Source: a virus
DNA: 25,625 bases
Strand: one strand, 5' to 3'
IMG/VR virus record: IMGVR_UViG_3300027909_000061
Span: 1 to 25,625 of that record
Shown in pieces: positions 9,188 to 25,625 of this stretch. The notes beneath the pieces were generated by a model. The model worked only from the letters and a program-made list of their open reading frames with translations, did not search any database and had not been told where the DNA came from. Positions within the stretch are counted from its first letter, which is position 1, and each line of letters begins with the position of its first letter. Made by a program: the position numbers and the translations under genes.

Positions 9188-10456
9188 CTAATCAGACATT
9201 AAAAAATCCCTGTTAGACATACCAGCAGGAATTTGTCCTGGTTTAGTTTTTACACGATTGTCCGATCTTTTAGGTGAGGCATCGGATTTCCTATCCTTTG
9301 GTTCTTGTTCTTCTTCTATAGATTCTTCTTTGATTCTTTTACCCATTCCCTTTAATGCTTCGTTTCGAGCCTTTTTAATGACTGAGGCTAACAGTGTTTG
9401 TGCTTTTGAAAGATATGCGCTCTGAATCTTACCGATAGATTCTGAGCTAAAATTATTCTTCTCTGCATGTTGCCAGAGTTTATCTCGTAAGGCAGCAAAA
9501 CGACTATCCTTACTAATCAATTTATATGTAGTTTCTAATGCATCCCGTTCCGCAACTCCCTTAATATAGGAAGTCATAGAATTCTTAGGATCAATATGTT
9601 TACCAATATTATGCTTGAGAATCTTTTCAATCTTATCTTCTAAACCACCACGAGCCTCTTCAAATTTTTGTACACTTAAAGCCTTCTCACGTTCTTCAAG
9701 TTGTTTCTCTCTTTCAGATTTATCAGGTTCCGCTTTAGATAAAGGAGCAGAACTAGTTAATTTAGCAGTTCCGAATACGTATTGATTTAAAATGGTTGCA
9801 GTATTTTCAAGGAGTTGCCCTTGATCTCCACCAACATCCCGACCTTCTTTAACCATATTATAAATTGTTCTTCTGATGATATTTCCAACTACATGATGAT
9901 ATGCTTTCTCATCAACCTTAGCTAGGGACATTAAGTAATTATCTGCAATTCTATTGAATGATTCATTATTTTCCTTTTTAACCGATTCAAGAACTTTGGT
10001 TAAATCCCCACCAAGTAATTCTTGTTCAAAATTATCAAGTGTTTCTGCTCGTTCATGCGCAATTTGAGCATCAGAAGGAGAAGGAAATATTTCAGAATAC
10101 TTTCTCTCCCTATAGTAAGCCTTCTCAAGATAAGGAAAATCCTGGAAAATTTTGGGATACTTACGTAAAATTTCCGCCCGTCTAACTGGCTGAATGATTT
10201 CTAAATCATCTTCTTCTTTATCTTCGAGTTCTAATTCTTCTTCAATTTCTTTTAATTCATCAACTTCCTCTTCCTTCTCTTCCTCTTTATCTTCTTCTCC
10301 TTCTTTTTCTTCTTTTACTTCTTCATCAGGTTTTTCTTCCTTTTCATCCTTCTCTTCAGGTTTATCATCATCCTTCAGAAGATCATAAATTTCATCAGGA
10401 CCAATATCAGTCTTTAAATCAATAGAGCCAGGATTAGAATTAGAGAGTATTGACAT
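9188..10456 (-). CDS. capsid scaffold-like protein, highly acidic and coiled-coil
   Basis: 422 residues from ATG 10456, preferred over ATG 10462 because AAGGGG stands seven bases before it. Residues about 25-95 are almost uninterrupted Glu/Asp/Lys. The centre and C-terminus are helical with charged heptad-like repeats (KSEREKQLEEREKALSVQKF, about 245-265) and a basic C-terminal tail (PKRSDNRVKTKPGQIPAGMS), the usual capsid-binding end of scaffolds. Position between portal and capsid genes is diagnostic. No protease triad is visible, so I see no fused maturation protease. The gene overlaps the portal stop by 17 bases. The very acidic N-terminal region may be a disordered lumen-facing extension. 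Confidence 0.85.
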   Translation of the reverse strand: MSILSNSNPGSIDLKTDIGPDEIYDLLKDDDKPEEKDEKEEKPDEEVKEEKEGEEDKEEEKEEEVDELKEIEEELELEDKEEDDLEIIQPVRRAEILRKYPKIFQDFPYLEKAYYRERKYSEIFPSPSDAQIAHERAETLDNFEQELLGGDLTKVLESVKKENNESFNRIADNYLMSLAKVDEKAYHHVVGNIIRRTIYNMVKEGRDVGGDQGQLLENTATILNQYVFGTAKLTSSAPLSKAEPDKSEREKQLEEREKALSVQKFEEARGGLEDKIEKILKHNIGKHIDPKNSMTSYIKGVAERDALETTYKLISKDSRFAALRDKLWQHAEKNNFSSESIGKIQSAYLSKAQTLLASVIKKARNEALKGMGKRIKEESIEEEQEPKDRKSDASPKRSDNRVKTKPGQIPAGMSNRDFLMSD

Positions 10457-12743
10457 CTTCATTCCCCTTAATCGGTGCCTCTTTATCAGTTTCTTTGGGC
10501 TGTTTACCTACGGATTCGGCACTTTGTTCCGCAGCAGCCATCATAGCAGCTTGTTGCTGTAAAATTTGGAGATGCATTTTAGCGTGTAATAATACATTCT
10601 TATAACCTGGTTCATTTTCAACTTTAGCTAATCTACCTGCATCACTTACTAACCAAGAGCGGCAGATTTCAAATTCTATTTCATGATTATCAATATCAGG
10701 ATCAATTTCTACTGAAGGAATTTCCTGTGGCATCATTGCTTGCATAGCCATAGGATCCTGCGCTACCATAGGATCTTGAGCCATCATAGGATCCATAGTA
10801 GGAGGCATTACTATAGGTTCACTATCCAATAGAAGTTTAATCTCTTCATATTGTTTATTCCTGTCATCTTCACCAGGAATATAGAAATCTTCAAGTCCCA
10901 AGGACTCACGAATAATGGGAAGATTCTCGGGCGCAGCCAATACCTTCAGAACTTCCTCATTATTCATTTGCATAAGATTCATTACTACGTCCTTCCTTTG
11001 GGACCATGTTAAAGGAAGGTTTTCATTTGCCTGTAATTCAAACTTACCAATCTTTCCTTCTAAATCTGCTTTACGAATGAATACATTGATAAACTTTCCA
11101 TTTGCATCTAATTGAACATCTCGTTCATCAGCTTGAATATTTTCAATATATTGGGGAATAGCCTTACTAAATACTTTCTTCCATGCAATAGTGAACATTT
11201 TCCAAAGATTCTGCAATCTCTGTAAAGCCTGCTCACGGGACATCGCATAACCAGACGCAGTTTTCTGTTCCTGTAATGCCCCACCAAATAATGAAGGAAG
11301 CGCGCCAGAAACTAATTGTCCCATCTGCTGCACATTTTCACTGAAAGGCATTACTTCCTGTGATAATGTAGCAGTCTTAACTTCAAAAAATGCGTCAGAT
11401 AAACTATGTCCTGCCTTTGGTTTCGCAGGATATATTGAACCAGGAGTAGTTTCCATTTGCCTGTATCCAGCAAAATTTAAAACTTGAGGATCAGCAAATG
11501 TTTGGCCTATTCCATGCTCAATAGTCTGTAACGTAAGAGAAACTAAATCATTCGTAATTTCCTGAATAGAAACTAAAAGCAGGCCCAGAGGATCATGCTG
11601 TAAATAATCCGACATGGGATTATAAGTAAGAGTCCATCTTTCATCTAATTTCTCAGGACATGCTTCAGCAAAATCATCATTGGCTAAAACTACTTTGCAT
11701 CCATCAGGGAAGTGTTTTAGTAATTCTTCCGTCTCCTCTTGCTTCAAAACATCGAACGCGCATGGTCTAAACCAATATTGTCTTTCCGAGATATTATTTG
11801 TGGGATATTCCCCTAAATACTGAGGCGATAATCTGCCCCAAGCCTCATAAGGATCAAATATTCCTTGGGGTTTACCTTGGAACTTTTCCTTCAATTTAGG
11901 ATATTTCTTGATAACATTCACGTAATGAGTTTCACATGTATAACTAAGATAAGGACAATCTTCCTGCTTACGAGCATAAACTGGAGTTTTTACGTATAAT
12001 CCACCCCATGCCTCTAAACACAATCTCGTCTTATCTTTAAATTGAGTTCTAATTAGCTGACTAATCATTTCTGTGGTTCTATTAATCTGAGGACTAATTA
12101 AAGAGCCACAATTTGGACAAATATCCTGTTGTTCTTCCATGCCCATCATAGGCATTTCACTACCCGATTCAACTATATTATTTTCAATTTCATATCCACA
12201 ATTAGGACATGAAATTACTTCATGTTCTTCTGGAATATCTTCATAAACATTTTCCTCATATTGACCATATTCTTTATCCGAATGAGGATAATTATAATAG
12301 GCTACCATTCCTTCAGTGCAGAAAATAAACCATGCATGAAGCCAAAGAAGAATTACATCATTATGATGATAAATTAACTTTGCGATTTGATCTCCAGCTT
12401 TTGCGGTTAATAAGTCAAGAGAATCATCTGCATTATCAGGATAACATTTAATCGCAGGAACAGTAATTGAGAGAGCAGCTATAATAGATTCTAAATAGGC
12501 CCGGAAAATATTCATGGGCTTATCATAGTATGATTGCTCTCCTTCATCAGTTGCACCTTGATCTGGTATCCTCCAATCATGCGCGGTTTCACTGGAATAA
12601 ATATTACGGAATCCTTCCCATAACAGTTTCAATCTGCGCCACGTCCTAATTTGGCGTTCACGCACAGACTTATCTTCATCATCAAAATGATCAACAACCG
12701 CTTTTAATAGCCGCTGAACTTCTTCCGAATATTCCCTAGCCAC
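10440..12743 (-). CDS. portal protein with inserted zinc-knuckle pair
   Basis: 767 residues, beginning GTG at 12743 and overlapping the upstream small gene by 8 bases. The N-terminal helical part (RQIRTWRRLKLLWEGFRNIY; IPDQGATDEG; PMNIFRAYLESIIAALSITV) is the typical portal wing entry of this phage type. Two CPNC knuckles at C179/C182 and C209/C212, 26 residues apart, form an inserted zinc-binding module. Later segments (TQLIEHGIG-type stem region, GALQEQKTASGYAMSREQAL at about residues 487-506) carry the QKTASG motif common in portals. Near the C-terminus lies a Met/Pro-rich repeat (MDPMMAQDPMVAQDPMAMQ) that is probably disordered. Length is large for a portal but usual for podovirus-type ones. 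Neighbours (terminase and scaffold) confirm the role: the DNA entry channel. Confidence 0.88.
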   Translation of the reverse strand: MAREYSEEVQRLLKAVVDHFDDEDKSVRERQIRTWRRLKLLWEGFRNIYSSETAHDWRIPDQGATDEGEQSYYDKPMNIFRAYLESIIAALSITVPAIKCYPDNADDSLDLLTAKAGDQIAKLIYHHNDVILLWLHAWFIFCTEGMVAYYNYPHSDKEYGQYEENVYEDIPEEHEVISCPNCGYEIENNIVESGSEMPMMGMEEQQDICPNCGSLISPQINRTTEMISQLIRTQFKDKTRLCLEAWGGLYVKTPVYARKQEDCPYLSYTCETHYVNVIKKYPKLKEKFQGKPQGIFDPYEAWGRLSPQYLGEYPTNNISERQYWFRPCAFDVLKQEETEELLKHFPDGCKVVLANDDFAEACPEKLDERWTLTYNPMSDYLQHDPLGLLLVSIQEITNDLVSLTLQTIEHGIGQTFADPQVLNFAGYRQMETTPGSIYPAKPKAGHSLSDAFFEVKTATLSQEVMPFSENVQQMGQLVSGALPSLFGGALQEQKTASGYAMSREQALQRLQNLWKMFTIAWKKVFSKAIPQYIENIQADERDVQLDANGKFINVFIRKADLEGKIGKFELQANENLPLTWSQRKDVVMNLMQMNNEEVLKVLAAPENLPIIRESLGLEDFYIPGEDDRNKQYEEIKLLLDSEPIVMPPTMDPMMAQDPMVAQDPMAMQAMMPQEIPSVEIDPDIDNHEIEFEICRSWLVSDAGRLAKVENEPGYKNVLLHAKMHLQILQQQAAMMAAAEQSAESVGKQPKETDKEAPIKGNEDVNTL

Positions 12744-12903
12744 GCTTTTTATCCTTCTTACTGAAAAGACTTCTTTTTTCTTTAGAAGTTTTACTTACAA
12801 ATTCTTTAGCTACTTCCTTAGATGGTCCTATTCCAGTATTAGATTTAGCTCCATGCGCGATTGCCTGCATAAATCTATACTGTTTTGCTGATTTGGCTGG
12901 CAT
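12736..12903 (-). CDS. small basic protein, 55 residues (DUF3008-like)
   Basis: Read from the gap between the Cys-pair protein and the portal. ATG 12903, stop TAG 12736; it overlaps both neighbours (29 and 8 bases). The product starts MPAKSAKQYRFMQAIAHGAK. The N-terminal PAKS-x-x-Q-x-x-F-M pattern is that of the tiny basic proteins of the DUF3008 type, often found beside phage terminase and portal genes. The rest is Lys-rich (KEVAKEFVSKTSKEKRSLFS). Function unknown; a basic peptide in this position could bind DNA or the packaging machinery. The recurring N-terminal motif makes chance unlikely. Confidence 0.8.
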   Translation of the reverse strand: MPAKSAKQYRFMQAIAHGAKSNTGIGPSKEVAKEFVSKTSKEKRSLFSKKDKKRG

Positions 12904-13246
12904 CTTCTTCCTCCTTACCTAAAACTTCTTCTTCAAGTTTTTCAATAGGTGTTCCCATTTCCTTGATTTCCTTTTGCTTTTTCTTTAATAATTCAAGGGA
13001 TTTCCTATCCTCAGCATCCATCATTTGTTGCCTAACTGCATGAGGAATAAATTTACGAGTAGTAGGCAATGGTTTTAAATCTGTGGTTTCCATTGCTGGT
13101 TGCATTTCAACCTTAGGCATTAAAAGTCTATCTAATAATCGTTCCTTTTCCCGTCTTTCATTCTCCAATTCACGTTGGAGAACTTCGCATGTCAAACATG
13201 GTTTATCTTCCAATCCAAACCATTTATAAAGTAATTCTTTAATCAT
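12875..13246 (-). CDS. Cys-pair and coiled-coil protein of unknown function
   Basis: 123 residues, with the ATG sharing one base with the TAA of the terminase gene (TAATG). An amphipathic start (MIKELLYKWFGLEDKP) is followed by one CLTC pair (C17/C20) and then a coiled coil (VLQRELENERREKERLLDRL, about 22-41). A proline-containing linker leads to a region with HAVRQQMMDAEDRK and a second charged helix (SLELLKKKQKEIKEMGTP), ending acidic. A single Cys pair could form an intermolecular zinc site in a dimer held by the coiled coil. Proteins of this layout recur between terminase and portal genes in uncultured phages, but I know no function. Confidence 0.8.
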   Translation of the reverse strand: MIKELLYKWFGLEDKPCLTCEVLQRELENERREKERLLDRLLMPKVEMQPAMETTDLKPLPTTRKFIPHAVRQQMMDAEDRKSLELLKKKQKEIKEMGTPIEKLEEEVLGKEEEDASQISKTV

Positions 13247-24733: not shown

Positions 24734-25084
24734 ATGCCAAAGACCACGACATTCAAGGGTGTTATCGAAAACGCATACGGTGCGCAGCTTCCCACGCCTA
24801 TCAAGTACGAGGGCGAATTCGAGGAACTTGTAAAGGGAGATGAGATTCCCGCAAAGGAAGCACCGGACGCGGACGAGCTTCTGGCATACGTGAATAACAA
24901 GCGCAAGGCAAATGCGCGTCAGAAGTCTATGCAAGCTGCACTTACGGCCTCAGGGATTGAAAAGCCTACGCTTGAAGATCCCAAGGTGCAGTTTTCTCAG
25001 ATGGTGAAGATTTTGGTTACTGCTGGCAAGAGTGAGGATGTTGCCAAGCAGATGGCTAATGCTTCACTGGGAACCAGCTACTAA
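24734..25084 (+). CDS. protein of unknown function, 116 residues, GC-richer than neighbours
   Basis: The ATG at 24734 has AAAGG nine bases upstream and follows the previous stop; a longer frame from 24680 would overlap the 57-residue gene and lacks a signal. The N-terminal half is strand-rich (TTTFKGVIENAYGAQLPTPI, KYEGEFEELVKGDEIP). The C-terminal half is helical and basic (LLAYVNNKRKANARQKSMQA; DPKVQFSQMVKILVTAGKSE), with Lys/Arg patches that could bind nucleic acid. Codons here use G or C in third position more often than the structural genes. Similar N-K/R-KANARQK segments recur in phage early regions in my experience, with no known function. A long inverted repeat starts seven bases after the stop. 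Confidence 0.75.
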   Translation: MPKTTTFKGVIENAYGAQLPTPIKYEGEFEELVKGDEIPAKEAPDADELLAYVNNKRKANARQKSMQAALTASGIEKPTLEDPKVQFSQMVKILVTAGKSEDVAKQMANASLGTSY

Positions 25085-25090
25085 TCGTCG

Positions 25091-25156
25091 GTAGTATTTT
25101 AGGATACTCTCAGGCGTCATATATACATAATCCTGAGAGTATCCGATAAATACTGC
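25091..25156. repeat. long inverted repeat between early genes
   Basis: Perfect 13-base arms GGATACTCTCAGG (25102-25114) and CCTGAGAGTATCC (25132-25144) around a 17-base loop. An outer AGTATTT (25093-25099) pairs with AAATACT (25148-25154), extended by T-G and G-C at 25091-25092/25155-25156, with a small internal loop of 2 and 3 bases. No T-run follows. It fills the gap between two genes and would fold strongly in RNA, or bind a dimeric protein in DNA. Confidence 0.8.
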
Positions 25157-25190: not shown

Positions 25191-25352
25191 ATGACACCAT
25201 TGAAGTATTTGATTGAATCGCGCATAGCAACAGCCGGTGAAATCATGGCATTTAAGCGCGATGACCCCCAAGGCTTTGATACGTTGCTCCGTTGGGCGAA
25301 AGAGGAAATGGAGCATAACAATATCGAAGTAACGGAACCTGAAAAGAAGTAA
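25191..25352 (+). CDS. small protein of unknown function, 53 residues
   Basis: ATG 25191 with AGGGAGA about nine bases upstream; stop TAA 25350-25352. The product MTPLKYLIESRIATAGEIMA continues FKRDDPQGFDTLLRWAKEEM and ends EHNNIEVTEPEKK, one long amphipathic helical pair, probably a small helical oligomer. It is followed after eight bases by a clean intrinsic terminator, which makes it the last gene of this unit. A longer frame on the other strand covers the same bases but begins inside the terminator stem and has no binding site. Function is unknown. Confidence 0.75.
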   Translation: MTPLKYLIESRIATAGEIMAFKRDDPQGFDTLLRWAKEEMEHNNIEVTEPEKK

Positions 25353-25360
25353 CCCCATCT

Positions 25361-25392
25361 GGCCCAGGGCTTGCATAGACTGGGCCTTTTTT
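25361..25392 (+). terminator. intrinsic terminator
   Basis: GGCCCAG (25361-25367), loop of 12 bases, CTGGGCC (25380-25386), then six T (25387-25392). Stem of seven, mostly G-C pairs with a T-run: a standard rho-independent terminator ending the rightward gene unit. Confidence 0.9.
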
Positions 25393-25410
25393 CCTGCCAA
25401 CCTATCCCCT

Positions 25411-25541
25411 TTAGCCGTATAGAAATCCCCTACCGATATCGCTTCGCGATCCCGCCTGTTAGCCGTATGAAATTTTATTCCAGCATTTTACTTCGTAAAA
25501 ATTCCTTTCGCCGTATGAAAATTCAACTACATGTAATGTAG
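25411..25541. repeat. three TTAGCCGTAT units at exactly 48-base spacing, each with a small hairpin
   Basis: TTAGCCGTAT at 25411 and 25459 and TTCGCCGTAT at 25507, followed by (a)GAAAT, GAAATT, GAAAAT. Each unit then has a hairpin of unlike sequence: ATCGC-TTC-GCGAT (25438-25450), TTTTAC-TTC-GTAAAA (25486-25500) and CTACAT-GTA-ATGTAG (25527-25541). The stretch has no coding frame that I trust. It could be an iteron-like origin or operator array, or a structured RNA. Confidence 0.65.
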
Positions 25542-25572
25542 GGGTATGTATGGGTATGGTATAAGTATCTAT

Positions 25573-25625
25573 CCCCTCCACAGGGGTCCTACACCCACCC
25601 CCCACCTCGGTAGGCCCCCTTTTTT
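25573..25625 (+). terminator. terminator with alternative upstream hairpin, cut by the window edge
   Basis: Terminator stem GGGG-t-CCTAC (25583-25592) with GTAGG-CCCC (25610-25618) and T-run 25620-25625. An alternative hairpin CCCCT-CCAC-AGGGG (25573-25586) uses the same GGGG, so the two cannot form together, as in attenuators. The T-run reaches the window end. Confidence 0.6.

Follow-up and report, generated by a model that had tools for sequence, protein, structure and literature searches.

The DNA analyzed here, hereafter the window, comprises positions 1 to 25,625 of the 25.6-kb virus record IMGVR_UViG_3300027909_000061, in which the late genes lie on the minus strand. A terminase, together with weak matches to a major head protein and to an SU10-adaptor-like protein, indicated that its source is a tailed phage without close named relatives. 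In nucleotide and tblastn searches of named phages, the terminase gave the sole match (25–28% identity), with no relative of the repeat array described below, of the 116-codon gene preceding it, or of the major head protein, and scans of bacterial and archaeal genomes likewise returned no relative. The overall layout could be read from the related, complete-looking contig G006 (45,179 b, with its own ends overlapping by 127 b): late genes occupy the minus strand and early genes the plus strand, and between them lie a small gene, the slot that is the subject of this report, a poly-T tract, and the early operon. The products of this operon include a Zn-ribbon protein, an SNF2 helicase with an SprT-like domain, a PD-(D/E)XK exonuclease, Sak4, SSB, UDG-PolA, and a DUF3987 primase-like protein. 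The UDG-PolA gene is intact in G002; in G006 it is in two parts (9398–11083 and 12024–12968) separated by small ORFs, which resembles interruption by an intron or insertion. The AlphaFold model of a conserved 767-residue protein was unusable (pLDDT, 33).

The slot is defined as the region between the 116-codon gene, used as an anchor, and the poly-T tract. Viral contigs with homologues of the 116-codon gene number about 20 in group 1 and about 60 in group 2, and its product had no family or fold match, with its AlphaFold model included in the fold search. The features of the window at and around the slot are as follows.

24734 to 25084, plus strand: conserved 116-codon gene (KANARQK family), which precedes the slot in all relatives used
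25097 to 25149, plus strand: long stem-loop directly after the 116-codon gene, an inverted repeat with a 13-bp perfect core (fold z, −7.1)
25191 to 25352, plus strand: possible small ORF of 53 codons, with no match
25366 to 25388, plus strand: predicted intrinsic terminator upstream of the array (stem energy, −14.9 kcal/mol)
25411 to 25427, plus strand: motif copy 1 (TTAGCCGTATAGAAATC), with one extra A (TATAGAAAT)
25438 to 25450, no strand assigned: mini-hairpin 1, ATCGC-TTC-GCGAT, giving a C-GAA-G loop on the minus strand
25459 to 25475, plus strand: motif copy 2 (TTAGCCGTATGAAATTT)
25486 to 25500, no strand assigned: mini-hairpin 2, TTTTAC-TTC-GTAAAA, giving a C-GAA-G loop on the minus strand
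25507 to 25523, plus strand: motif copy 3 (TTCGCCGTATGAAAATT), in which C replaces A (TTCGCCGTATG)
25527 to 25541, no strand assigned: palindrome CTACATGTAATGTAG, of the TACATGTA type, with a GTA loop; not an array hairpin
25570 to 25619, plus strand: C-rich tract and stem before the T-run, the counterpart of the pyrimidine tract of relatives
25620 to 25625, plus strand: first bases of a T-run that the contig end truncates, with 6 T left in the window

A further sequence, ATATGGGACC, is present twice in the stretch that separates the late operon from the 116-codon gene, its copies 63–76 bases apart (24062 and 24126 in the window), and the paired copies are also present in G002, G006, and L195.

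An earlier note, made from the letters of the window, had described a 10-base motif at 25411, 25459, and 25507, exactly 48 bases apart, and this periodicity was borne out: the three-copy match score of 19/20 exceeded the maximum of 16 reached in 400 dinucleotide shuffles of 25389–25560, and the motif was absent elsewhere in the window when up to two mismatches were allowed. The same note had placed a hairpin in every 48-base unit. This holds for the first two units, whose mini-hairpins share the offset from their own motif (+27) and a TTC loop; the third pairing falls at +20, outside the periodic unit. The stems of the two mini-hairpins are unrelated to each other, and the conserved part is the 10-mer outside the hairpin. 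Non-overlapping hairpins (stem of at least 5, loop of 3–4) numbered three in the array against a shuffle mean of 0.39, with 2/400 shuffles reaching three, and the two repeat-hairpin-repeat units were reproduced in none of the 400 dinucleotide shuffles. The dismissal of a CRISPR also stands, with repeats of 10–17 bases (at least 21 in CRISPR), three copies, hairpins between them, and no cas gene among the proteins scanned. Pattern scans of viral contigs with the window motif were discarded, as they yielded chance matches or repeats mostly with multiple-of-3 spacings, as in repetitive protein genes. The contigs near-identical to the window, G003 (99.9%) and G002 (about 82%), stop short of the array, so that it could not be compared with an orthologue; the TAGCCGTATG array was seen in the window only, and no close relative of the window with an array of its own was found.

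The comparison was one of position, across 63 non-redundant loci in which the slot could be gathered. A unit was counted when two exact copies of a direct repeat (8 bases or longer, 30–65 apart) stood on either side of a perfectly paired hairpin (minimum stem 5, loop 3–4). Such repeat-hairpin-repeat units were present in 29 of the 63 loci, against a shuffle expectation of 0.72 (sd, 0.83); the 34 loci missing the strict unit include cut contigs and weaker repeats, and others that seem to be without an array. The array-bearing slots carry two to seven motif copies, and the motif differs by lineage: TAGCCGTATG in the window and AGCTGTGCG, GCTAATCG, GCTTATCC, GCTTACTGCAC, CTAATCCAACA, GCTCATCC, CTTAGGG, CACGTAATA, and others elsewhere. 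When each locus was searched for its own motif core, with cores set by eye after the pattern had been seen, the slots of 30 loci held 89 copies on the plus strand and none on the minus strand, and about 162 kb of other sequence held 19 copies. In the majority of units, 6–11 bases separate the hairpin's right end from the next motif, and some motif copies have no hairpin. The earlier note had named relatives lacking the 48-base spacing as evidence against the array; spacing across relatives indeed ranges from 36 to 61, yet it is the architecture, not the number 48, that is conserved. This architecture is family-wide, consisting of a lineage's own motif on one strand and, a short distance before a copy, a hairpin with perfect pairing but unrelated sequence. 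A rule of spacings in multiples of 12, drawn from group 1, was dropped because the group 2 spacings do not fit, and a DnaA-box reading of the motif, which fits L203 (TTATCCACG), fails for the other motifs. Individual slots vary: the L003 array has two copies of CACGTAATA, 41 apart, with a 7-bp hairpin, and no array was seen in the L005 slot. A tandem duplication of the 116-codon gene in L186 (2998–4129) is accompanied by array-like sequence after each copy, the second being cut by the contig end and the first not adjoining a poly-T tract. After position 3336 of L183, a long imperfect inverted repeat (AGAGGACAG...CTGTCCTCT) encloses the poly-T tract and takes the place of an array.

The proposal that pairing is kept while the bases change was supported, and more strongly than by the window on its own, by unrelated, paired stems at the same place in many relatives. 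Among 11 hairpins whose loops are 3 bases long, including the two of the window, 97% of cells were paired, 5/6 pairs are changed on both sides, and the covariation score was 0.739 against 0.166 for shuffled and at most 0.167 for slid controls; the set was chosen after the pattern had been seen, and the result is partly circular because hairpins were picked for pairing. The pair-type counts and the stem past the five selected pairs are less circular evidence, with pair 6 being Watson-Crick in 14/18 cases. A cleaner case is the hairpin TTGCGCG-TAAC-CGCGCAA of L185 and its counterpart TCGCACG-TAAC-CGTGCGA in the second array of L186, which lie in alignable flanks and differ by two compensated pairs with none broken.

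The loops of these hairpins are biased on one strand. Read on the minus strand, 15/34 array hairpins have GNA or GNNA loops compared with 53/555 background hairpins (Fisher p, 6e-7), and the two array hairpins are the only C-G-closed hairpins with such a loop in the whole window. In phage N4, C(GNA)G hairpins extrude from DNA at physiological supercoiling (PMC4496689), and both window hairpins have the C(GNA)G loop and 5–7 bp stem of an N4 promoter hairpin. The array could be a set of N4-like early promoters, each hairpin being the template-strand hairpin at which RNA would start near the motif and run right into the early operon. The partly free stem sequences, the few units per genome, and the position upstream of the early genes in the right direction all resemble the promoters used by the N4 virion RNA polymerase (vRNAP). 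However, positions −17 to +1 are conserved between N4 promoters, including a GC-rich heptamer at −11, whereas the window stems are unrelated and the repeated element is a 10-mer outside the hairpin, with some copies lacking a hairpin altogether. Loops that violate the GNA rule (ATA, AAGA, and others) are common among relatives, strong sigma-70 promoters follow the poly-T tract in several of them, and no vRNAP was found by Pfam, PHROGs, or PDB sequence searches or by a crude motif scan, which a highly divergent enzyme could escape. We therefore regard early promoters as a quite improbable function of the array.

An RNA-level role is another alternative. Pistol ribozymes (RF02679) scored above the Rfam gathering score in L190 (3455–3508, plus strand), L191 (3449–3511, plus strand), L294 (1469–1537, plus strand), and L201 (604–541, minus strand). 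The L201 ribozyme lies just after the early promoter, and those of L190, L191, and L294 sit in the slot that carries the hairpin array in other relatives; because a self-cleaving ribozyme occupies the slot there, transcription of the slot and a function as RNA are possible in these three phages. Read-through from the 116-codon gene could transcribe the slot on the plus strand, and the motif-hairpin units would then act as RNA, for example in 3′ UTR processing or as targets of an RNA-binding protein of the phage or its host. The strict one-strand orientation of the motifs agrees with this, as does the covarying stem-loop just upstream of the array. At the same place after the 116-codon gene, relatives such as L217, L218, and L238 have a stem-loop of unrelated stem, and in group 2 the stem varies freely around a 9-base loop, GAC[TA]GCAAA; this element, at 25097–25149 in the window, is possibly terminator-like or an RNA element, and it adjoins the array without being part of it. 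Against an RNA role, the array RNA folded no better than shuffled sequence (z of −0.15 on the plus strand and −1.27 on the minus strand), and no Rfam covariance model, Pistol included, matched above its gathering score in the window or in array-bearing loci, whose repeated identical motifs also set them apart from the ribozyme. A predicted terminator stands in front of the array with no promoter-like site seen directly upstream, wobble pairs were not clearly enriched at outer stem positions, and the loop bias fits a DNA rule on the minus strand. Taken together, these observations make a structured RNA rather unlikely, and they weaken the suggestion of a small RNA that soaks up a protein.

A poly-T tract lies on the plus strand 170–660 b downstream of the array in 24 of the 25 testable relatives, and such tracts are almost unique to the slot, with only 25 in 158 kb. 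The T-run at 25620–25625 is probably the start of this tract. An array enclosed by two terminators, as had been proposed, is half retained: the upstream terminator is predicted, and the downstream one (25582–25625) is a C-rich stem and a T-run cut at the contig end, where relatives have the beginning of a long poly-T tract. AT-rich palindromes (TACATGTA for group 1, ATAATATTAT for group 2) are found repeatedly behind the final motif copy and close to the poly-T tract, and are possible binding sites; a ACATGTAA(T) palindrome is present in L003, L005, L185, and others. With these operator-like palindromes nearby, with directional repeated boxes, and with the slot placed between the late (minus) and early (plus) operons, the array might be a multi-site operator or another protein-DNA control site, such as a late/early transcriptional switch or a partition site. 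Its distance from the poly-T tract, and the still greater one from the early promoter, is too far for a simple operator, and the hairpins are left without explanation, so that we consider this function improbable. A packaging signal (pac or cos) might be expected in a non-coding slot that is unique in the genome, and several near-complete contigs end in or near it. The poly-T tract accounts for these ends, the overlap in G006 is exactly 127 bases, an assembly k-mer size, which suggests a circular assembly broken here, and the terminase gene is 10 kb away from the slot; packaging appears very unlikely indeed.

Several same-orientation copies of a short box (three in the window) and an adjoining AT-rich tract (present in relatives, with its first 6 T kept in the window) are the marks of an iteron origin. 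Directional boxes, a poly-T tract, and the border of a replication operon together constitute iteron-origin anatomy, and we therefore infer that the array acts in cis at the level of DNA and most likely marks where replication is initiated in this phage family, a reading that takes about half of our confidence. The unit counts, the one-strand motifs, the stem covariation, the minus-strand loop bias with the N4 precedent for extrusion, and the terminator without a promoter-like site in front of the array also speak for it. Among the functions listed in the earlier note, an iteron origin beside an AT-rich stretch is the best fit. Under this model, the 10-base motifs would be iterons, directional boxes bound by an initiator particular to each lineage, and negative supercoiling may extrude the mini-hairpins between them, whose minus-strand loops would be of the very stable C-GNA-G or C-GNNA-G type. 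The extruded hairpins could help the initiator to load or could expose single strands, and the downstream poly-T tract, beside the early replication operon, would serve as the unwinding element. The main points against an origin are the Pistol ribozyme in the slot of L190, L191, and L294 and the fact that Pfam and PHROGs searches recognized no initiator gene; the first L186 array, away from any poly-T tract, also counts against it. In G006 the GC skew reaches its minimum close to the slot, but genes change strand at that point too, so that the skew is confounded by their orientation.

Known origins share parts of this arrangement. Origins of the lambda type combine iterons with an AT-rich tract (PMC7466680), and the repeated boxes beside an A/T tract in a phage replication region are alike; each lambda iteron, however, is itself an inverted repeat, located within the O gene and bound by O, whereas separate mini-hairpins lie between short boxes here and no initiator was identified. 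The pRN1-type origin and the stem-loop proposed for phage BIP-1 (PMC4234260) likewise place structured DNA in a non-coding slot as a proposed origin and keep the structure while the sequence varies, although there a single large 100-bp stem-loop stands in place of the boxes and mini-hairpins, and the replication proteins differ. We tentatively suggest, as a possibility that falls short of probable, that the array belongs to a class of phage origin not described before. In such an origin, directional boxes particular to each lineage would alternate with DNA mini-hairpins that are extruded by supercoiling and follow the C(GNA)G or C(GNNA)G rule; a large uncultivated phage group would share it, with a Pistol ribozyme replacing it in the same slot of some members. 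If this is true, hairpins extruded from duplex DNA would be part of the origin in a whole phage group, beyond the promoters of N4, and the exchange with a Pistol ribozyme would offer a positional clue to the role of such ribozymes in phages. Hairpin extrusion and initiator specificity could then be tested directly on the unrelated stems, loops, and boxes that these phages supply naturally.
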